Below, in pieces: positions 17,016 to 27,491 of a stretch of DNA of 64,000 bases. The position numbers were made by a program, and so were the translations under genes. The notes beneath the pieces were generated by a model. It worked only from the letters and a program-made list of their open reading frames with translations. It was not told where the DNA came from and searched no databases. Every line of letters starts with the position of its first letter. Within the stretch, counting starts at the first letter, position 1. The DNA lies in assembly GCA_003104905.1 (NCBI GenBank), contig PQAS01000050.1, positions 1-64,000 on the forward strand, read 5' to 3'. The stretch comes from Candidatus Methanoperedentaceae archaeon (GTDB taxonomy: Archaea > Halobacteriota > Methanosarcinia > Methanosarcinales > Methanoperedenaceae).

Positions 17016-17429
17016 ATGATAATAAAAACAGAACGAAAGTTTTCGGCTGCCCATAGGCTTCCGAATTATGATGGTAAATGTTCAAGACTCCATGGTCACA
17101 CCTGGAAGGTAGAAGTTGCAATCGAAGGTGAGCCGGACGTAGAAACAGGAATGCTGATGGATTTTGTAGAAATCAAAAATATAATCGATGATCTGGATCA
17201 CCAGTATCTAAATGACTTTATTAATAATCCGACAGTTGAAAACATTGCTAAATACATTTTAGATAATCTTGCAAGATGCCAGCCTCGATCAGATTTTAAA
17301 ATCAGGGTGTGGGAGACAGAGGATTCTTTTGCAGAGGTTGATAATCAGGACAAAACAGCCACACAGGGAGAGATCAAAGAAAATATTGGAGAAATCATGG
17401 GGGAAAATTATGGAAAAATTACAGGTTAA
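17016..17429 (+). CDS. queD: 6-carboxy-5,6,7,8-tetrahydropterin synthase (QueD/PTPS family)
   Basis: A 137-residue T-fold enzyme using dihydroneopterin triphosphate. Zinc ligands H13 (SAAHRL), H26 and H28 (RLHGHTW) and the catalytic-type C22 (GKCSRLHGH) are present, as are DLDHQYLND and PTVENIAKYI and the C-terminal WETEDSFAEV. The last 25 residues are an extra charged tail that overlaps queE by 20 bases. With queE and folE next to it the pathway is 7-deazaguanine synthesis. Confidence 0.92.
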   Translation: MIIKTERKFSAAHRLPNYDGKCSRLHGHTWKVEVAIEGEPDVETGMLMDFVEIKNIIDDLDHQYLNDFINNPTVENIAKYILDNLARCQPRSDFKIRVWETEDSFAEVDNQDKTATQGEIKENIGEIMGENYGKITG

Positions 17430-18033
17430 CGACATATTCTACTCTATCCAGGGGGAAGGAAAGTATCTTGGCGAACCACAGATTTTTTTAAGATTGCAGG
17501 GCTGTAATTTCAGATGCAAGTGGTGTGATACAAGGGAAGCATGGAGTAGAAATGGTGGAGTAAGTATGGGGATGGATAAGATTATTGACACGCTCAAAAG
17601 GTTCAATTGCAGTAGAATATGTGTTACTGGCGGGGAGCCGTTACTCCAATCTGATAAATTGCTGCATTTGTTGGAGCAACTAAAAGAATTGAATTACAGT
17701 ATTGTCCTTGAAACAAATGGAAGCATGGTAGATAAAGAGATATTCGGTTTGGTGGATTGTGTTTCTGCAGATATGAAGCCCCCCTCCTCAGGTATGAAAA
17801 GCACAGATAAAATACTCAGTTCACTCAAGCACAAGGACCAATTAAAGATCATAGTGAAAGATAAAACGGATTTCGATTTTGCAAAGGAAGTTCTCAAGAG
17901 ATGCCAATGTATCTGCTACTTGCAGCCGGTCGGGGGCATTAATGCAAAACAACTGGCAAACTGGGTATTGAACGATCAGCTTGAGAATGTCAGGGTGACG
18001 ATTCAGCTTCACAAATTGATGGAGATGAAATAA
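17410..18033 (+). CDS. queE: 7-carboxy-7-deazaguanine synthase
   Basis: A 207-residue radical SAM enzyme that converts 6-carboxytetrahydropterin to 7-carboxy-7-deazaguanine. The [4Fe-4S] cysteines are C32, C36 and C39 (CNFRCKWC), preceded by the QueE hallmark YSIQGEGKYLGEPQIFLRL and followed by VTGGEPLLQ. ATG 17410 is chosen over the longer open frame because MEKLQVNDIFYSIQGEG begins the family. QueC is not in the window. Confidence 0.92.
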   Translation: MEKLQVNDIFYSIQGEGKYLGEPQIFLRLQGCNFRCKWCDTREAWSRNGGVSMGMDKIIDTLKRFNCSRICVTGGEPLLQSDKLLHLLEQLKELNYSIVLETNGSMVDKEIFGLVDCVSADMKPPSSGMKSTDKILSSLKHKDQLKIIVKDKTDFDFAKEVLKRCQCICYLQPVGGINAKQLANWVLNDQLENVRVTIQLHKLMEMK

Positions 18034-18581
18034 TGGATTCTGAATTGATCATGGGGGGAGTGAAAAATATTTTGAGAGCGATAGGTGAAGATCCTGAGCG
18101 AGAGGGGCTCATGGAGACCCCTAAGAGAATTGCACAGATGTATGAGGAAATATTCAATGGCTATAAAAATATGGATTTTAACCTTACTGTTTTTGATAAT
18201 CCCGGATACGATGAGATGATTACCGAATCAAATATCTATTTTTATAGCATGTGCGAACACCATATGCTGCCCTTCTTTGGCACGGCACATATCGGCTATA
18301 TCCCTAATGGAAAAATATTCGGTCTGAGCAAGCTGGGCAGAATTGTTGATTTTTACGCTAAAAAGTTGCAGCTTCAGGAAAGGATGACAACCGAGATTGC
18401 GGATTTCCTTATGGAAAAAATCGAACCGAAAGGATGCATTGTTGTGGTTGAAGCCGAGCATATGTGCATGAGTATGAGGGGCGTAAAAAAGCCAAATCAC
18501 AAAACCATTACCAGTGCTATAAGAGGCATTTTCAAAGAGACTAAAGGTTCCAGAGAAGAATTTTTGAGACTGATACGCTAA
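18033..18581 (+). CDS. folE: GTP cyclohydrolase I (FolE type)
   Basis: A 182-residue enzyme making dihydroneopterin triphosphate from GTP, the substrate of QueD. Zinc ligands C74, H77 (MCEHHMLP) and C145 (HMCMSMRG) and the GLSKLGRIVDFYAKKLQ signature are intact. The start overlaps the queE stop (TAATG). Most archaea use MptA/FolE2 instead, so a bacterial-type FolE suggests transfer or a dedicated pathway. Confidence 0.93.
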   Translation: MDSELIMGGVKNILRAIGEDPEREGLMETPKRIAQMYEEIFNGYKNMDFNLTVFDNPGYDEMITESNIYFYSMCEHHMLPFFGTAHIGYIPNGKIFGLSKLGRIVDFYAKKLQLQERMTTEIADFLMEKIEPKGCIVVVEAEHMCMSMRGVKKPNHKTITSAIRGIFKETKGSREEFLRLIR

Positions 18582-18614
18582 GGATACTGATTCATGGTAT
18601 GGGAGGAAACAAAA

Positions 18615-19748
18615 ATGACGTTCCTAGAATCGAGAGGAAAAATAAAAATGAAAGGTATGTCTGGAATGATGGCGGTTTTTATTCTGGGTATTGTCATGGC
18701 AATGCCTATTGCCGCAGCAACCCCGGACATGAAGGATTGTTACAAAGAGCATGGGCGATATGAGAAGATAGATAAAGCGATAGAGAAGGGGATAATATTT
18801 TTGGAGAGTAAACAGTCGGAATCGGGAGAATTTCCAGTGGAGTTTTCTTTAGACCCCAAAATGTCAAACATAGTGAATGATAGTATATTCAATCATACAA
18901 TTTTTGGATCAGCTTTTATTCTTCACGCTCTAACATATATAGAACCATCTTCACATGTAAATAACATAAGGAACAGGTCAATATCATTTCTTATGGAAAA
19001 TATGGAGCCTCCAGGTGTCTGGAGTTATGGTGGAAAATATTATTCTTCTCCGCCTGATAGTGACGATACAGCCCTTGTACTTTCAGCTTTAGAAGAGAAT
19101 GGGGTCGGAATTAATGATAGTTCCTTGCGGTTCATGCTGAATTTCAGGACAGATGAAGGGTTATTTCACACATGGATGATCGAAAACAGGTCGGATACAT
19201 CTGATCCACATTCTCACTTATATGCCTTAGATGATGTCGATGCCAGCGTAAATGCATATATTTTGTACGCTTATGCCTTGAATGATATGAGAATAAAAGA
19301 AGTAAGCCGATTTCTCAATAACTATACAAAGAATAAGTTATTTTTAAACGGTACTCCATATTATCCATCTCAATATGCTTTCATCTATCGGTTAACATTA
19401 GCCTATGCGGGTGGCTCAAAGGGATTAGATTCTGCCATTCCGACCGTAAGAAAATATCTGCTGGACAAACAGAAAACAGACGGAAGCTGGGGGAATAGCG
19501 TAGAGAATGGTTTTGCAGCAGTTTCACTTATTAATATCGGATATGAAGATGAAGCATTGGATAAAGCCATAAATCATATCGTGAGCACGCAAAAAGACGA
19601 TGGCAGCTGGCCAAGAGCTGTCTTTTATGTAGGGTGGCCATCAAGTTATGAATCCCATCTGGGGCCAGTGCCTTATTTCGGTTCTGAGGAACTTGCAACA
19701 GGTATATCCCTGGAAGCCCTGGGAAAATATAACAGTCAAAAAAAATAA
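18615..19748 (+). CDS. Secreted squalene-cyclase/prenyltransferase-fold protein with DSDDTA motif
   Basis: A 377-residue protein with a signal-like segment (MMAVFILGIVMAMPIAAA) and an alpha/alpha-barrel repeat region. It carries PDSDDTALVLSALEENG (about residues 147-163), which matches the DXDDTA acid motif of class II terpene cyclases such as squalene-hopene cyclase. QW-like repeats KTDGSWGN and KDDGSWPR are present. It is about half the length of squalene-hopene cyclase. ATG 18615 has a strong GGGAGG; ATG 18648 is an alternative. Catalysis on an isoprenoid outside the membrane is inferred. It could instead be a non-catalytic repeat protein. Confidence 0.65.
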   Translation: MTFLESRGKIKMKGMSGMMAVFILGIVMAMPIAAATPDMKDCYKEHGRYEKIDKAIEKGIIFLESKQSESGEFPVEFSLDPKMSNIVNDSIFNHTIFGSAFILHALTYIEPSSHVNNIRNRSISFLMENMEPPGVWSYGGKYYSSPPDSDDTALVLSALEENGVGINDSSLRFMLNFRTDEGLFHTWMIENRSDTSDPHSHLYALDDVDASVNAYILYAYALNDMRIKEVSRFLNNYTKNKLFLNGTPYYPSQYAFIYRLTLAYAGGSKGLDSAIPTVRKYLLDKQKTDGSWGNSVENGFAAVSLINIGYEDEALDKAINHIVSTQKDDGSWPRAVFYVGWPSSYESHLGPVPYFGSEELATGISLEALGKYNSQKK

Positions 19749-19770
19749 TTAAATAATTATCTAAAATATT

Positions 19771-21174
19771 ATGATCAGCACATACATCCAATCAGAAAGG
19801 CAAACCCCTACGACGGGTTTAACATCCGATGATCTCGGTCACCTCAGGTATTTCTATGAAATAGCTACCCAGCCTCTTGATAAATGGAACGGTTTTCTAT
19901 TCCCTGTAAATGGCGTGTTCTCATATGCGGTCAGAGTACAACTGTCATCTGCATCGTTTGCAGTAGCCGCTTTAGCCTCTAAAACACCTGCATATAGAGA
20001 AGTCTATGAGAAGATTATGGACTGCCTGATTCAGCGGATGCTTCAAAGGAGGACATGGAGTTACTGGAGATACTGTTCAAGAAATCTCGACCCCATATAT
20101 AAGAACAACATATGCTACAGCGCGTACTTATCAAACATGATCGGATTATTTGAGAAACTGACAAACAACGACAAATATGATGATAATTTCGACCTCATCT
20201 GGAACAAAAATACGAAATTCACATATAATCATCATACTTTATCTCAGAGGATATACGAGCAAATGGTTGAAAATCACCATCATGGAGTACAGTGCCAGCT
20301 GGAATTTGTATTCCAGGCTTGCAGCAATTTTGCAGCCCTGAGCAATATTCTAAATGATCAATTGCACGGTACAGATTATTCTTCCGTGAACCCTCAATGG
20401 AAAAAGTGGGCGCGGGAGAATTATGTAAATAGAAAACCGTTTTCTAAAGGGATTCTCTACTTTTCTTACGTGGAATTTCTCAGAAAGATGCTAAAATCGA
20501 GTGAAAATATAACCGATGTTGGGGTTCTGGCATTAGCCACACCAGTTGATTGGGATATCGTAATAGAACTATATCCGAGATTGGCAGAAATAGTAACCCA
20601 TGTGAGTGAAGAAAGTGCATTTATTAAAAGCAGACCTCTGGACGATTTCTTTGAAATTTCGAACGACTCCATGACGACGAGCTTCGGTTACCTTCTGGCA
20701 AGACAGATGGACGATGAAACTCTTGCTGAAAAATTCTTAAACTATGCGGACAGGGAATTCAATCCTGTATTGGAAAATGGGAAACTTTACTATAAGAATG
20801 TAAGAACTCAACTATTTACCACAAGTTTATTTGCGTGGGGAAAAGTGACCTCAGGCAGGCAGTTCGCAGACCTGGTTCAAACAAAACACGATAAAGCCTT
20901 CTTTGATCTTCCTTTTGTCTCTCATGTCGATTACCCGGATGTTTACCTGAAAAAAGCTGATTACAACAACGAATCGAAAGTTCTTACCGTTGTCATAACT
21001 CCGGGAGATTCCAGAGAGAATACTGAGCTCACCTGCTCTAATATAACCAGTATTGGAAGCGTGCAAAAGGACGGTGTGATTTACGATTCATATAAATTTG
21101 AAAATGAATATGGCAGATTGAAAATCTACACAGGTTTAGAATCCGGGCATACTTTCGAGATAGCATGTCAATAG
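19771..21174 (+). CDS. Linalool dehydratase/isomerase-like (LinD) protein
   Basis: A 467-residue protein resembling the LinD (alpha/alpha)6-barrel enzymes. Visible blocks are RTWSYWRYCSRNLDPIYKNN, then YSAYLSNMIGLFEKL, then TYNHHTLSQRIYEQM, and GVQCQLEFVFQACSNF. The two cysteines (C175 and C184) are nine apart, the same spacing as the catalytic C171/C180 of the Castellaniella enzyme as I recall it. No signal peptide or membrane span is obvious, so it is probably cytosolic, unlike its secreted neighbour. A small beta domain ends the protein. Substrate unknown; a terpenoid alcohol is plausible. Confidence 0.7.
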   Translation: MISTYIQSERQTPTTGLTSDDLGHLRYFYEIATQPLDKWNGFLFPVNGVFSYAVRVQLSSASFAVAALASKTPAYREVYEKIMDCLIQRMLQRRTWSYWRYCSRNLDPIYKNNICYSAYLSNMIGLFEKLTNNDKYDDNFDLIWNKNTKFTYNHHTLSQRIYEQMVENHHHGVQCQLEFVFQACSNFAALSNILNDQLHGTDYSSVNPQWKKWARENYVNRKPFSKGILYFSYVEFLRKMLKSSENITDVGVLALATPVDWDIVIELYPRLAEIVTHVSEESAFIKSRPLDDFFEISNDSMTTSFGYLLARQMDDETLAEKFLNYADREFNPVLENGKLYYKNVRTQLFTTSLFAWGKVTSGRQFADLVQTKHDKAFFDLPFVSHVDYPDVYLKKADYNNESKVLTVVITPGDSRENTELTCSNITSIGSVQKDGVIYDSYKFENEYGRLKIYTGLESGHTFEIACQ

Positions 21175-21185
21175 AGAAGGAAAAT

Positions 21186-21536
21186 ATGAAAATTTTTATT
21201 GAAATCAATACAAGGTTCGAAGGAATACACAGGTGGGATAATGCGCCTGAAGCTGTTTTTTTCTTAAGGAACGCCCACAGGCATGAATTTCATGTACAAG
21301 CGAGGATACAGGCATATCATGATGATAGAGAACTTGAATTCATCCTTGTGAAAAAGCAGATCGAGATGTGGGTTAGAGCTTTGTCTTTTGATCTTGGGCA
21401 GAAAAGCTGTGAAATGCTCGCAAAAGAGCTGGCAGCTTTCTTGCTGGAAAAATACGGGAACGACAAGCAGCGGCATGTGGAAGTCAGGATTTCCGAGGAT
21501 GGCGAGAACGGTGCCTTGGTGCTATATGATGCTTAG
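21186..21536 (+). CDS. QueD-like T-fold protein
   Basis: A 116-residue protein with the tunnelling-fold pattern FEGIHRWDNAPEAVFFLRN, HRHEFHV, HDDRELEFI, SCEMLAKELAAFLLEKYG and VRISEDGENGA. H15, H31 and H33 align with the PTPS zinc histidines. Similar short proteins occur in phages and are often labelled 6-pyruvoyl tetrahydropterin synthase; the true activity is unknown. The start at 21186 has GAAGGA upstream. It is a second T-fold enzyme in the same operon as queD. Confidence 0.6.
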   Translation: MKIFIEINTRFEGIHRWDNAPEAVFFLRNAHRHEFHVQARIQAYHDDRELEFILVKKQIEMWVRALSFDLGQKSCEMLAKELAAFLLEKYGNDKQRHVEVRISEDGENGALVLYDA

Positions 21537-21547
21537 AGGAGGACTTG

Positions 21548-22564
21548 ATGCAACTTTTCGATACGCTTAGAAGATATAAGATGTTGCTTGATATCAAAAA
21601 AGTCCTGGATATGAGCTCCGGCTTCCATAAGCTCTGGCATATTTCAACCGGCGTTGAACTTGGTATTTTTGATAACCTGGTAAAAAAACCCATGGGTGCA
21701 CAGGAATACGCTGCTATATATGATCTGGACACAGAACTTGTCAATGCATGGATGGAAATCGGAGCATCCTATGGGCTGCTTAAGAAACGGGGTGAGGTGT
21801 ACTCAAACACAGCATTTACCGAAACTTATCTGTGCATGCATTCAAGACTCTGTTTTGCTAATTTCCCATGGGGAATAACAAGTATGCACAGCAAATTGTT
21901 CGAAAAACTGCCCGAATTGATGAGGAACAAAAAGAGGTATCAGATCTCCCCGGACCTTGCACTGAAAGTGGTGCAAGGAACCCGCTTCCTGGATAACTGG
22001 GGGCTTGATGTGCTATTAACGCTTCCGGTCCATGAGGATAATTGCAGGATTCTGGACATAGGATGCGGCCAGGGATATTATCTAATCGAGCTGGCAAAAA
22101 GAAACCAGACCTTAACCGGGACCGGGGTAGAACTTCAGGAGAGTGTATGTACAGAGGTCAATGGACGCATTAAGAATGCGGGACTTCAGGATAGGTTATC
22201 TGTACTTCATGGAAATGCAAAAGAGATAGATCTTGGCGAGAATTATGATATCTGCCTTATTAATAATATGTTATATTATCTCGAAAAGGAGGAAGCAATG
22301 GAATTATTGAAAAGGGCTAAAAAGGCATTAAAGCCGGATGGGATGATAGCGGTACAACAGCCGATTTTGACAGGAAATGTCGATGTAGGTTTTGTACACT
22401 GGGTTATACTAATTTTCGGAGGAATGGGTCTTCTTCCAAAGGGAGATTTGATGAACTTATTGAAACATGAAGGCTTTGACCAGGTTACGGCAAAAAAGAT
22501 AGAACCAACAGGACAGTGGCTTTATTTCATAGGGATAAATGAAAAAATAAAGAGGAAACTATAA
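21548..22564 (+). CDS. Class I SAM-dependent methyltransferase (O-methyltransferase-like)
   Basis: A 338-residue protein with a helical/winged N-terminal dimerisation domain (HKLWHISTGVELGIFDNLVK) typical of small-molecule O-methyltransferases. The Rossmann SAM site RILDIGCGQGYYLIELA is at about residues 167-183, followed by NNMLYYLEKEEA and a C-terminal ALKPDGMIAVQQP. GAGGAGG precedes ATG 21548. The substrate is unknown; position suggests the product of the neighbouring enzymes. Confidence 0.85.
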   Translation: MQLFDTLRRYKMLLDIKKVLDMSSGFHKLWHISTGVELGIFDNLVKKPMGAQEYAAIYDLDTELVNAWMEIGASYGLLKKRGEVYSNTAFTETYLCMHSRLCFANFPWGITSMHSKLFEKLPELMRNKKRYQISPDLALKVVQGTRFLDNWGLDVLLTLPVHEDNCRILDIGCGQGYYLIELAKRNQTLTGTGVELQESVCTEVNGRIKNAGLQDRLSVLHGNAKEIDLGENYDICLINNMLYYLEKEEAMELLKRAKKALKPDGMIAVQQPILTGNVDVGFVHWVILIFGGMGLLPKGDLMNLLKHEGFDQVTAKKIEPTGQWLYFIGINEKIKRKL

Positions 22565-23427
22565 TGATTGAATATGGTTTGAAGATTCCTGGATTGATCC
22601 TTATTATTATATCTCTTGTCGGGATTTCAGCGGCATCGGCTGAAAGTGAGAGAATATCAAACGGGAGTCAACAGGATTTTGTATTCTCAAAGATATATGA
22701 TGAAGGGTTCGGCGCCAGTTCGGAAGGCTTCAAGTTGATTTTAAGAACCTACGAGCAGCGTCAGGATACACGCTTTAAACCTTTTCTTACTGATATAGAG
22801 TACATCTTAATGAATAGAGATATTGTTATTTATTCAAAAAGGATGAAGCAGATCCCACTATCAGTGGGTAATGAAGGGATTGTTGTACTCAACCACCAGC
22901 CGGATGTTGCGCTGGAAGAAGGGAATAATTATACAGGTATTGTAAAGATTTACATTTACAACAAAGGTGCTCCTGAATATTATCTTACTACAAGCTCAAA
23001 TTTCATAGCCAAAAGCGATGCTGATATAACTGATGTTTTTAGCGACGATATAGGTGCAAGTGTGACCATTAAAAGCATATCCATGGTTCCCCTTAATGCT
23101 AAGATCATCTTCACGCTGAAACAGGATAACAGGATTATAGAAACCAGGGAGACGGCAGCCCCATCGATTATGTCCAATGATAAAGAAAAAACAGTGAACG
23201 TTCTCTGGAAAAATAGATTGAGTGAAGGGATTTATATGACATCGGTACTTTTGAAGGGAACGGATATCTCAGTTAATTATGATAAGATCTTTACTGTTGA
23301 GAAAAAGACACAGGTGACAGCTCCTGTAAGAGCAGCCCAGACAGGCAGCAGTCATAGCCTTCCGGGTTTTTCTTCAGTGCTTGCAGCCGTAGCGATATTT
23401 GCGTTTGCTTACAGATGGAGGAAATAA
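22564..23427 (+). CDS. Secreted PGF-CTERM surface protein
   Basis: A 287-residue protein with an N-terminal signal (GLILIIISLVGISAASA), a beta-rich extracellular body and a C-terminal LPGFSSVLAAVAIFAFAY plus RWRK. The tail is the PGF motif, membrane segment and basic end of archaeosortase-processed proteins. The start overlaps the methyltransferase stop (TAATG). It may be the surface partner of the transporter encoded by the next genes. Confidence 0.75.
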   Translation: MIEYGLKIPGLILIIISLVGISAASAESERISNGSQQDFVFSKIYDEGFGASSEGFKLILRTYEQRQDTRFKPFLTDIEYILMNRDIVIYSKRMKQIPLSVGNEGIVVLNHQPDVALEEGNNYTGIVKIYIYNKGAPEYYLTTSSNFIAKSDADITDVFSDDIGASVTIKSISMVPLNAKIIFTLKQDNRIIETRETAAPSIMSNDKEKTVNVLWKNRLSEGIYMTSVLLKGTDISVNYDKIFTVEKKTQVTAPVRAAQTGSSHSLPGFSSVLAAVAIFAFAYRWRK

Positions 23428-23431
23428 AGAA

Positions 23432-24610
23432 GTGCATTTAGATGATATTCGCTCTGCTCTGTTCTATTCAAAAAAGGACATCTTTAAAAATAAAAAAATC
23501 TTTTTGTTTATAACTGCAGCTATAATATTTGCAACTGCAAACATCATTATCATTAATGGATTCATGGATGGGATGATAAGGGATTTAGCTGATAACACGG
23601 TTGAATCGTCCCTGGGGCATTTAAATATCTACCCTGATCAGGAAGAAAGGTTTATAGAGGGTCTGGGGATAAAAGAAGAGGAGCTAAATGCATTAAAGGA
23701 CGTAGAGGCATATTCCCCCAGGGTCTCTGCAAGTGGTGTATTGTCGTTCAAGGAATTATCTGCTTCTGCAAACATACTGGCTCTTGATCCTGATAAAGAG
23801 CGCGGGGTAACAAAACTTCTGGATAAACTTGATAGTGGTACTGCTATAAACTCGAATGATGGAAATGCCATCCTGGTTTCCTATCGCCTCGCTGAGGATC
23901 TAAAACTTGATACAGGGGATGAAGTGACTCTTGCTTTTGAAAACGGGAATATGAAGGAATATATGATCAAAGGAATAATTCGCACAGGTTCCCAGGAATT
24001 CGACAGTTCGACTGTAGTTATGGCCCTCAATGAGGCCAGGAGACATCTTGATATCGAAAACAGAGCATCTTCCATACTTGTAAAGCTCTCTGATAAAGAG
24101 ATTGCCGGGGATTACAAACCGATACTGATGCAAAACCTTGGCATCAAGAACGTAAAGACGTGGAAAGAGGAACTCGAATATTTAATGAGTTTCACAGAGG
24201 CATACAAGAGTTTTTCCAGTATCATTTCTGCAGTGGGATTAATCGCTGCATCAATCTCAGTTGGGATTATCGTCTATGTAAATGTGATTCATAAAAAAAG
24301 ACAGATAGGGATTATGAAGGCACTGGGGGCGAAAGATTCCTTTATCTTCACGGTTTTCATCATGGAGGCGCTGCTCTTTGGCTTGATAGGTGTTCCTGCG
24401 GGCGACATTGTCGGGTATCTTGCCATTAAACATATGGAAGCAAATCCTTTCTATGATGCCATTATGATGACATGGATAAGTGCAAGGTTCGGAAACTACC
24501 TTCTCTATAATGCAACAGCAGTTTCTTTTGCGGCAACGTTATTAGCGGGAATATATCCCGCCATCAAAGCAAGCAGGATAGATATCATAAAGGCGATATG
24601 GGGAGGGTAA
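23432..24610 (+). CDS. FtsX/MacB-like ABC transporter permease, first copy
   Basis: A 392-residue permease with one N-terminal helix (IFLFITAAIIFATANIIII), a large extracytoplasmic domain (about 45-250) and three C-terminal helices. HKKRQIGIMKALGAKDSFI is the conserved coupling region of LolC/MacB permeases. GTG 23432 has GGAGG nine bases upstream. It overlaps the next gene (TAATG), a tandem paralogue with the shared INGFMDG motif. Confidence 0.85.
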   Translation: MHLDDIRSALFYSKKDIFKNKKIFLFITAAIIFATANIIIINGFMDGMIRDLADNTVESSLGHLNIYPDQEERFIEGLGIKEEELNALKDVEAYSPRVSASGVLSFKELSASANILALDPDKERGVTKLLDKLDSGTAINSNDGNAILVSYRLAEDLKLDTGDEVTLAFENGNMKEYMIKGIIRTGSQEFDSSTVVMALNEARRHLDIENRASSILVKLSDKEIAGDYKPILMQNLGIKNVKTWKEELEYLMSFTEAYKSFSSIISAVGLIAASISVGIIVYVNVIHKKRQIGIMKALGAKDSFIFTVFIMEALLFGLIGVPAGDIVGYLAIKHMEANPFYDAIMMTWISARFGNYLLYNATAVSFAATLLAGIYPAIKASRIDIIKAIWGG

Positions 24611-25764
24611 TGTCAGCAGTCTTATTCTATGCAAGAAAAGATTCAGAAAAAAATAAAAGGATGTTCGTATTTATTATCATTGCGATTGCCCTTTCCACGG
24701 CAAATATCATTATCATAAATGGATTCATGGATGGAATTACCGACGATTTTGTGGAAAAGACTATGGAGACATCTTCAGGTCATCTCAATATATATCCCGA
24801 TGAGCAGAACAGGTATATAGAGGGGCTGGGCGTAAAGGAACAGAAGCTCGATACTTTTGATAATGTGATTGCTTATTCTCCAAGAATCAATGCAGGCGGA
24901 GCTTTATCATATAAAGATAAATCCAAATCAATACGAATTCTGGCGGTGGACCCTATTAAAGAGAACAGGGTAACAAACATTCTGGGCAAAATCGATTCGG
25001 GTGAAACCCTTGATGTCAATGACAGGAACGGAGTTTTAATCTCGTATCGGCTGGCTGATGAGCTGAAAGCCAGGGTTGGGGATGAAACGGTTTTAGTGTT
25101 TGAAAAAGGCAATACAAAGGTCTTCAGGATAAAAGGGATATTCCGTTCCGGCATGGCACTGGATACAAATACGGTCATACTGGATTTTGAGAGTGCAGCA
25201 GAGCAACTCAATCTGAGCAATAAAGCATCGGTAATCCTTGTCAGGCTCTCTGATATAGCCCTTACGGGGCAATATAAAGATACTATATCCCGGGAACTTG
25301 GAGCTATAAAAGTAAAAGAATGGAAACAAGAGGTTGAATCTATATTAAGTTCTACTGCGACCTTTAAAGAGATTAGCTCCGCAATAAACGCGATTGGATT
25401 ATTTGCATCCGCAGTTTCGGTTGGGGTGATACTGTACATAAATATCCTTCACAGGCGAAGACAGATAGGGATAATGAAAGCAGTTGGCATGAAGGATTTC
25501 CAGATATTATCCGTTTACATCATCGAGGCGATGATTATGGGAACAATAGGTATTATAGCCGGAGATATGCTCGGGTATTTAGGCACAAAATACCTGGAAG
25601 CACATCCATTCTCTGATCCTATCCTCGGGTCACTGAGTCCAAGGTTCTACACATATATCCTTTATGATGCTTCGCTGGTGACCATGGCAACTGTAATTCT
25701 TGCTTCAACGTACCCGGCGCTGATGGCAGGCAGAATGAACATCATAAAAGCAATCTGGGAGTAA
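24610..25764 (+). CDS. FtsX/MacB-like ABC transporter permease, second copy
   Basis: A 384-residue tandem paralogue of the preceding permease with the same order: helix 1, extracytoplasmic domain, three helices. Shared stretches include IIIINGFMDG, LNIYPDE and RRRQIGIMKAVGMKD. The two probably form a LolCE-like heterodimer. Confidence 0.85.
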   Translation: MSAVLFYARKDSEKNKRMFVFIIIAIALSTANIIIINGFMDGITDDFVEKTMETSSGHLNIYPDEQNRYIEGLGVKEQKLDTFDNVIAYSPRINAGGALSYKDKSKSIRILAVDPIKENRVTNILGKIDSGETLDVNDRNGVLISYRLADELKARVGDETVLVFEKGNTKVFRIKGIFRSGMALDTNTVILDFESAAEQLNLSNKASVILVRLSDIALTGQYKDTISRELGAIKVKEWKQEVESILSSTATFKEISSAINAIGLFASAVSVGVILYINILHRRRQIGIMKAVGMKDFQILSVYIIEAMIMGTIGIIAGDMLGYLGTKYLEAHPFSDPILGSLSPRFYTYILYDASLVTMATVILASTYPALMAGRMNIIKAIWE

Positions 25765-25770
25765 TTGGAA

Positions 25771-26436
25771 ATGGACATAATTAAGACAGGTAATCTTAAA
25801 AAGAGTTACATGCTTGGCAAGGTCGAGGTTAAAGCGCTCAATGGCGTCGATGTCTCAATTCAGAAGGGAGAATTCGTTGCCATTATGGGCCCCTCAGGCT
25901 GTGGGAAATCAACCTTCCTCAACATGGTCGGCATGCTTGATATCCCGACATCAGGAGAAATATATGTTGAAGGCAACGATGTGACTGGAATGAGCAGCAA
26001 TAAAAGAGCAGAGTACAGACTCAGGCACATAGGCTTCATATTCCAGTTTTTTAACCTTTTTAATGAGCTTACAGCTATTGAAAATATAATGTTTCCGATG
26101 ATGCTGAACAGAATGCCGAATTACAGGAAAAATGCGCAAGAGCTGCTAAACCTTGTTGGTCTTGGCGACAGGATCCACCATTTGCCTTCAGAACTTTCGG
26201 GTGGACAGCAGCAGCGTGTTACAATTGCAAGAAGTCTTGCCAATAGTCCGAAGATACTCCTGGCTGATGAGCCGACTGGCAACCTGGATACAAAATCATC
26301 GAAAGAGATCATCGAGCTTTTCAGGAAATTGAACCTTGAGAGAGGACAGACGATCGTGATGGTAACGCATAGCCAGGAAATAGGCGAAAAAGCGGACCGG
26401 ATAATACACTTCAGGGATGGTATAATTGAAAAGTAG
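25771..26436 (+). CDS. ABC transporter ATPase (LolD/MacB type)
   Basis: A 221-residue ATPase with Walker A GPSGCGKST, signature LSGGQQQR, Walker B ILLADEPTGNLD and switch VMVTHSQE. This belongs to the lipoprotein/macrolide exporter class that pairs with FtsX-type permeases. It completes the two-permease transporter. These systems move hydrophobic or lipidated cargo or transmit force rather than import. Confidence 0.9.
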   Translation: MDIIKTGNLKKSYMLGKVEVKALNGVDVSIQKGEFVAIMGPSGCGKSTFLNMVGMLDIPTSGEIYVEGNDVTGMSSNKRAEYRLRHIGFIFQFFNLFNELTAIENIMFPMMLNRMPNYRKNAQELLNLVGLGDRIHHLPSELSGGQQQRVTIARSLANSPKILLADEPTGNLDTKSSKEIIELFRKLNLERGQTIVMVTHSQEIGEKADRIIHFRDGIIEK

Positions 26437-26599
26437 AGTTATTGTCTCATTCGTTTTAATATTTTCTGCTGTCATGCTGTATTTGTCCTTAAAGACGCCT
26501 GCAACAGAGGTAATAGCTGCAGGATTCTCAGTACTTTTACTGCTGTCAGGTATTATCATTCATCCTGTACTGCTTGGCATTCAGAATAAGCAGGGGTGA
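26426..26599 (+). CDS. Small two-helix membrane protein
   Basis: A 57-residue frame from TTG 26426 (MKSRVIVSFVLIFSA) to TGA 26597-26599 with two hydrophobic segments. It overlaps the ATPase end by 11 bases and stops 4 bases before the UbiA start, which argues that it is real and co-translated. No family recognised. It may be a transporter or prenyltransferase accessory. Confidence 0.6.
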   Translation: MKSRVIVSFVLIFSAVMLYLSLKTPATEVIAAGFSVLLLLSGIIIHPVLLGIQNKQG

Positions 26600-26603
26600 G
26601 AGA

Positions 26604-27491
26604 TTGAAAAAAGATATTAAAAATATTATTATACTGGGTTCTCCGCATTATATACTTTTAGATATGTCCACAATATTTGGAACTGCTCTGTTCTCTCTGG
26701 GGAGATTGCCTGATTTGAACGAATGGATAATGCTCTTTGTTCTTTTCATTACAGGCTCAATAATCATGAACGGCGTTGATGTTGCAGGACATTATACTGA
26801 CAGCGATGTGGATAAATACCAGAAACCAGAAAATCCCCTCCAGAAAGGAGAGATAAATCAATTTACAATGAAACGAGCCGTCAAATATATATATATTTTG
26901 GCGATTATTTCCTTAATTACTATGTCAGTCCTGTCAGAAAACCTAACCCTTATACTGGTGGCAGTAGCAGGATGGTTCTTTGGTCACACGTATGTTACGT
27001 ACCCTATAAGGGCAAGGGCTAACTGGCTTCTTGCTTCTCCCTGGTTTTCTTCAGGACTGGCGATTATTCCTCTTTCCGGATGGGTCCTTTTTAGACAAGA
27101 AGCATCGATATATACAGCAGCCATTTTCCTGCTTTTTTTCTTTCCATTAATGGGCGAGTTCTTGACGAAAGAACTTAATCATTTAGAATATGATTCAAAA
27201 GGTGGACTTATAACACTGCCTATGGTAATTGGCAATAAATTAACAGGAATTTTAGGGGTTTTTTTTAACTTATTTTCATTTATCATACTAATCCCTATTT
27301 TTTACTTTAAAGGATTTTTTAATGAGGTTACGATTATTCTCATGTTAGCTCCCTCCCTGTTAGCAACTATTGCCTCGGCCCAGTTAATCAGGCATCCTAT
27401 AAAAAATGCCGGCAGTGCGCAGGCCTGGATCAAAATAGCTATCGTGTGGATCGGGTATGCCCTTTTAATCTCTTCACTGATTAATATATAA
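26604..27491 (+). CDS. UbiA-family prenyltransferase
   Basis: A 295-residue integral membrane protein with about eight helices. It has a first acidic motif NGVDVAGHYTDSDVDKYQKP (diverged from NDxxDxxxD) and a second in KELNHLEYDSKGGLITLP. These bind the isoprenyl diphosphate through magnesium. TTG 26604 is preferred because GGTGA lies just upstream. It differs from typical GGGP or quinone prenyltransferases in motif 1, so the acceptor is unknown. It ends the 17-27 kb operon. Confidence 0.8.
   Translation: MKKDIKNIIILGSPHYILLDMSTIFGTALFSLGRLPDLNEWIMLFVLFITGSIIMNGVDVAGHYTDSDVDKYQKPENPLQKGEINQFTMKRAVKYIYILAIISLITMSVLSENLTLILVAVAGWFFGHTYVTYPIRARANWLLASPWFSSGLAIIPLSGWVLFRQEASIYTAAIFLLFFFPLMGEFLTKELNHLEYDSKGGLITLPMVIGNKLTGILGVFFNLFSFIILIPIFYFKGFFNEVTIILMLAPSLLATIASAQLIRHPIKNAGSAQAWIKIAIVWIGYALLISSLINI

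Follow-up and report, generated by a model that had tools for sequence, protein, structure and literature searches.

A distant archaeal relative of linalool dehydratase/isomerase that keeps the cysteine pair of the LinD active site within a changed loop

The open reading frame at positions 19771–21174 (plus strand; exact boundaries) of the window, the 64 000-nucleotide stretch of Methanoperedenaceae DNA analysed here, encodes a 467-residue protein which, judged by homology, is a distant archaeal relative of linalool dehydratase/isomerase (Ldi) in which the catalytic cysteines are kept and the loop around them is changed. We favour, with a probability of roughly 55%, the reading that this protein acts in the cytoplasm and would use the two cysteines in catalysis on an isoprenoid alcohol.

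Membership of the linalool dehydratase/isomerase family, as proposed in the initial annotation, is almost certain from the profile comparisons. The Pfam Ldi profile (PF18566; curated cut-off 26.1 bits) matched the protein with 154.1 bits (E = 8.4e-45) over profile positions 1–316 of 318, and Ldi was the sole Pfam family with E ≤ 1, so the profile search that had been suggested came out well above threshold and no other alpha/alpha-barrel family was a better match. Credible matches in the PDB were confined to entries for LinD, the Castellaniella defragrans enzyme (E ~2e-23), the remainder being at chance level, and hhalign comparison of a profile of seven other Ldi members with the archaeal pair (this protein and its orthologue in the METP1 genome) gave a probability of 99.9% (E = 5.6e-32) over residues 15–426. 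No NCBIfam model matched the protein, and its identity to characterized enzymes is ~25% or below. By homology, it would fold as an (alpha/alpha)6 barrel followed by a beta-type region, the latter common to the archaeal protein and long bacterial homologues and missing from LinD; an AlphaFold model made from two sequences was of low confidence, with a pLDDT of 37 and a pTM of 0.23.

The segment GVQCQLEFVFQACSNF holds Cys175 and Cys184, nine residues apart. The conserved cysteine pair claimed from the letters alone was borne out by phmmer, MAFFT and hhalign alignments, all of which placed these residues on Cys170 and Cys179 of LinD (the LinD sequence used is identical to the PDB copy across residues 1–368), and both are invariant in nine of nine aligned proteins, namely the archaeal pair and seven bacterial relatives. 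In LinD, Cys170 and Cys179 are essential, in that their mutation abolishes activity, and they must be in the reduced state; a separate capping disulfide is formed by Cys48 and Cys101 (PMC6600392). The spacing on its own is weak evidence, because C-x8-C is present in 3 of the 55 window open reading frames longer than 150 residues and in 8% of shuffled copies of the 467-residue protein; it is meaningful because homology places the two cysteines on the catalytic pair of LinD.

The residues around this pair differ from those of the bacterial relatives. Five columns with little or no variation among the seven bacterial proteins are changed in the archaeal pair (Met to Cys115, Glu to Gln176, Pro to Leu177, Asn/Asp/Arg to Glu178 and Asn to Ser185, the last directly after the second cysteine), so that CEP...CN becomes CQL...CS, and the replaced Glu-Pro together with the added Cys115 suggest an altered site. 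The barrel motifs Trp96, Trp99, Pro108, Asn113, Asp196 and Gly200, and the C-terminal region, are kept. The key active-site residues named for LinD are His128, Tyr44, Asp38, Cys179 and Cys170 (PMC12455561). The His128 column is occupied here by Tyr119 (20125–20127) and across the family by Tyr, Phe or His, the last being absent in most bacterial relatives; a tyrosine is therefore compatible with activity, and, for the same reason, it bears on identity with LinD and not on family membership. With Glu171 and Pro172 of LinD replaced and Tyr at the His128 position, the chemistry may nevertheless differ. The N-terminal region around Asp38 and Tyr44, where LinD has an insertion, aligns without confidence, and the capping disulfide has no counterpart (Leu91 stands at the Cys101 column, and residues 1–84 hold no cysteine). 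The TYNHH block had also been taken as part of a LinD-like site, a view that did not survive the alignment: positions 153–155 are variable, most of the stretch falls where LinD is shorter, and His128 aligns elsewhere, with Tyr119. The TYNHH histidines and the His169–His171 run before Cys175 were likewise rejected as catalytic residues, their columns being variable.

Such changes might mean that the Ldi fold and both cysteines have been turned to some other reaction (isomerization, a lyase reaction or a transfer, for example) on a substrate other than an isoprenoid, in whose synthesis the neighbouring methyltransferase and pterin-type genes would take part, and the long, isolated branch of the archaeal pair and the FolE, QueE-like and PTPS-like genes nearby are in keeping with this. 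We consider it rather unlikely, given that the cysteine pair, the barrel motifs and the C-terminal region have been kept and that neighbouring genes are of isoprenoid type.

At its N terminus the protein lacks a hydrophobic segment, the maximum 19-residue hydropathy within its first 60 residues being 0.94, which agrees with the earlier statement that a signal peptide is missing, and it is therefore predicted to be cytoplasmic. Its gene is under purifying selection, with a dN/dS of 0.157 against the METP1 orthologue (92% identity), similar to that of neighbouring genes. METP1 (our G003), a 'Ca. Methanoperedens' metagenome-assembled genome, is the only other carrier among the genomes sampled: the gene was found in 2 of the 31 genomes of the genus, and neither in the other 29 nor elsewhere among 392 genomes sampled across the phylum. 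A peptide-pattern scan of genome contigs, with patterns drawn from one sequence, likewise matched METP1 only; viral contigs scanned with three queries and phage records yielded no relatives, and 12 plasmid records held relatives of ~21–24% identity. In a small tree the archaeal pair stands alone on a long branch, apart from an Agrobacterium–Variovorax–Rhodococcus group, LinD and a group of membrane-anchored appearance. A search of open papers found none linking linalool dehydratase with archaea. Contamination was considered and rejected: homologues of the flanking proteins occur in Methanoperedens at 42–72% identity and the gene order in METP1 is identical. The archaeal host assumed in the initial annotation is upheld. 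The sparse distribution could also be that of a recently acquired passenger gene with no settled role in its host. We think this highly improbable, since the gene order is shared with METP1 at 92% identity and a dN/dS of 0.16, the gene overlaps the next one, and its GC content equals that of its neighbours.

Genes lie head to tail from 17016 to 26436, where neighbours either overlap slightly or stand no more than ~22 bases apart, and a UbiA-family gene comes next (Table 1); METP1 has the identical order from the PTPS-like gene onward; the run is presumably co-transcribed. The three genes at its head (17016–18581) we take, from family motifs, to encode PTPS/QueD-like, QueE-like and FolE proteins; a bacterial-type FolE of this kind is carried by 3 of 33 relatives searched. 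The 123-residue protein encoded directly after the Ldi-family gene gave no confident match (PTPS at 0.03 and PseH acetyltransferase at 0.05) and, among the genomes searched, occurs only in the two with Ldi; it is a possible partner of the Ldi-family protein. Because close orthologues of the Ldi gene, this small gene and the methyltransferase gene were found in this genome and METP1 only, the three appear to have been added, in this lineage, to a module that was already there.

Table 1. Features of the Ldi-family gene, its neighbours and the aligned cyclase-like homologues (positions in the window unless a locus is given)
Feature	Position	Strand	Evidence or remark
PTPS/QueD-like (presumed)	17016–17429	+	Sequence features
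QueE-like (presumed)	about 17410–18033	+	Sequence features
FolE (presumed)	18033–18581	+	Sequence features
Secreted class II terpene-cyclase-like protein (predicted)	18594–19748	+	Signal peptide, DSDDTA, Tyr257, YFGSEE; directly upstream of Ldi
Ldi-family protein, 467 residues	19771–21174	+	Predicted (alpha/alpha)6-barrel region, ~residues 15–360, then C-terminal beta-type region
Cys115, replacing invariant Met (LinD Met124)	20113–20115	+	Alignment, column table
Cys175, equivalent of LinD catalytic Cys170	20293–20295	+	phmmer, MAFFT and hhalign alignments
Gln176-Leu177-Glu178, replacing E-P-N/D/R after the first catalytic Cys of 7/7 bacterial relatives	20296–20304	+	Column table
Cys184, equivalent of LinD catalytic Cys179	20320–20322	+	phmmer, MAFFT and hhalign alignments
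123-residue protein, no confident fold match	21165–21536	+	Start overlaps Ldi stop by 10 bases
O-methyltransferase with dimerization domain	21545–22564	+	Pfam; close orthologue only in the two Ldi genomes among those searched
Secreted 287-residue protein	22564–23427	+	Module near cyclase-like gene also in other Methanoperedens
Two FtsX-type permeases	23399–24610, 24598–25764	+	Module near cyclase-like gene also in other Methanoperedens
ATPase	25765–26436	+	Module near cyclase-like gene also in other Methanoperedens
UbiA-family prenyltransferase	26574–27491	+	Pfam; one of six UbiA genes per 2.9 Mb genome
Aligned cyclase-like homologues	L026:5643–6725, L027:5634–6824, L028:5814–7079, L029:4737–6911, L031:3437–4627, L032:5685–6929		

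The gene directly upstream, with a probable start at 18615, encodes a protein that matched the Pfam profile SQHop_cyclase_C with 30.4 bits, just over the cut-off of 26.1, and, in the PDB, squalene-hopene cyclase (E = 2e-7) and drimenol synthase (E = 1.2e-6). Its DSDDTA motif (residues 155–160, 19056–19073) aligns exactly with DVDDTA in squalene-hopene cyclase and with DLDTT in the drimenol synthase AsDMS. The published catalytic residues of the latter are Asp331, Asp333 and Tyr427 (PMC12365925), and, after correction for the numbering of the PDB chain, which is that of the published protein minus 10, they align with Asp155, Asp157 and Tyr257. The DxDD-type motif and the tyrosine are kept in all six full-length Methanoperedens homologues compared; a further motif, YxGS(E/P/Q/R)(E/D), is also conserved in the cyclase-like proteins of the genus. 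No SQS_PSY protein was found in the genome, so squalene is an unlikely substrate. Cyclase-like genes occur in 13 of the 31 genomes of the genus. Often the genes for the secreted protein, the FtsX permeases and the ATPase stand next to them, and in two further genomes (G007 and G012) a UbiA gene is nearby; most of the 13 genomes lack Ldi, so the two genes need not occur together. Moreover, the cyclase-like protein has a signal peptide and the Ldi-family protein has none, so the two may not share a compartment. The secreted cyclase-like proteins possibly carry out isoprenoid chemistry outside the cell or at its surface.

In one genome (G008, contig C51) a 724-residue open reading frame, L029:4737–6911, combines a cyclase-like domain with an alkaline phosphatase (PF00245, E = 9e-80), an arrangement reminiscent of the fusions of HAD phosphatase and terpene cyclase, although it may be a fusion of that genome alone. 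It was considered as support for a phosphorylated substrate and then demoted to a lead, because the other species have the phosphatase as a separate gene at another place.

With isoprenoid-type neighbours (the cyclase-like and UbiA genes), a terpenoid alcohol is the best guess for the substrate of the Ldi-family protein, and the proposal in the initial annotation of a new isoprenoid alcohol, itself plausible, gains from the gene neighbourhood. We infer both the substrate and the direction of the reaction. In the reaction we envisage, Cys175 and Cys184 would both be kept reduced, as would fit the cytoplasm of an anaerobe, and would act by acid/base catalysis or as a nucleophile, so that an allylic carbocation is generated and then quenched; by analogy with LinD, they may transfer protons to and from an allylic alcohol or diene, or attack it for a moment, with loss, gain or relocation of water. 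An allylic isoprenoid alcohol would in this way have its hydroxyl group added, removed or moved, making the enzyme a hydratase/dehydratase or a hydroxyl mutase, and the likeliest substrate would be a prenyl or terpenoid alcohol that the gene run itself handles rather than linalool imported for growth.

In keeping with an enzyme that acts on environmental linalool or geraniol in catabolism or detoxification, like LinD or the Lis enzyme of Thauera, the protein has the family and the catalytic cysteine pair of LinD, which may itself serve detoxification (PMC6013536). The genome speaks against catabolism: no Carboxyl_trans protein was found in it at 98% completeness, with controls positive in 12 of 14 genomes, and there is therefore no geranyl-CoA carboxylase and no Atu pathway, so that growth on linalool is unlikely. 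The earlier expectation of something other than ordinary monoterpene degradation thus holds. No genes for geraniol or geranial dehydrogenases were recognized among the immediate neighbours, the His128 position and flanking residues are altered, and the protein is predicted to be cytoplasmic, whereas LinD is periplasmic. We accordingly hold a catabolic or detoxifying enzyme of this kind to be improbable, with a role in detoxification alone being possible.

A cytoplasmic enzyme for an isoprenoid alcohol, our preferred reading, might also form part of something larger. The placing of the Ldi gene beside the gene for a secreted cyclase-like protein is a hint that Methanoperedens-type archaea have a terpenoid pathway not yet described, and we suggest, tentatively, that some Methanoperedens possess a module dedicated to the synthesis or modification of a terpenoid, comprising a secreted class II cyclase, the Ldi-family enzyme, the O-methyltransferase, UbiA and the ABC-type system; in such a module the Ldi-family enzyme, with its remodelled cysteine site, would be the hydratase/dehydratase or hydroxyl mutase. 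Were this so, ANME archaea would have a terpenoid pathway as yet undescribed for the group. The cyclase-like proteins, which 13 of 31 Methanoperedens genomes encode and whose catalytic set looks complete, point to isoprenoid chemistry in methane-oxidizing archaea. An archaeal member of the family in which both cysteines persist amid altered residues could, in addition, help to separate the residues essential for the chemistry from those that tune the Ldi site, which is relevant to the debate between acid/base and covalent mechanisms and to enzymes that make dienes.

Among known systems, the cyclase-like protein can be likened by sequence to drimenol synthase (HAD-TCbeta) and squalene-hopene cyclase, from their DxDD-type motif and residues matching Asp331, Asp333, Tyr427, Phe281 and Phe518 of AsDMS; unlike these enzymes, it is predicted to be a secreted, single-domain protein, and it has no HAD phosphatase domain. 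The closest structural reference for the Ldi-family protein is LinD (PDB 5HLR and 5G1U; EC 4.2.1.127), with which it shares the family, the catalytic cysteines, the motifs of the barrel region and ~25% identity. LinD is periplasmic, with the Cys48–Cys101 disulfide and His128, whereas the archaeal protein has neither signal peptide nor such a disulfide, has Tyr at the His128 position, CQL for CEP and an extra Cys at Met124, and extends by a C-terminal region of ~100 residues.

Lis, from Thauera linaloolentis 47Lol, is the one enzyme named in a review as similar in sequence to Ldi (PMC6013536), and its catalytic domain is cytosolic and needs a reductant (PMC4791888). Compared by description, it resembles the archaeal protein in being a distant family member of the long form (644 residues) with a cytosolic catalytic domain, and differs in its four N-terminal transmembrane helices and in catalysing isomerization only. 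The uncharacterized long-form homologues on plasmids of Agrobacterium vitis, Variovorax, Rhodococcus, Aureimonas and Novosphingobium align over both the barrel and the C-terminal region, at 18–23% identity, but in all of them the first cysteine is followed by Glu-Pro and the second by Asn, and Met stands where the archaeal protein has Cys115; three have N-terminal hydrophobic regions, and some lie near alcohol or aldehyde dehydrogenases. On plasmid pAU20b of Aureimonas sp. AU20 (L010:7748–10371), a polyprenyl diphosphate synthase gene (uppS) overlaps an Ldi-like gene whose product has an N-terminal membrane region, and this overlap suggests a biosynthetic, rather than a catabolic, role for some relatives of Ldi.
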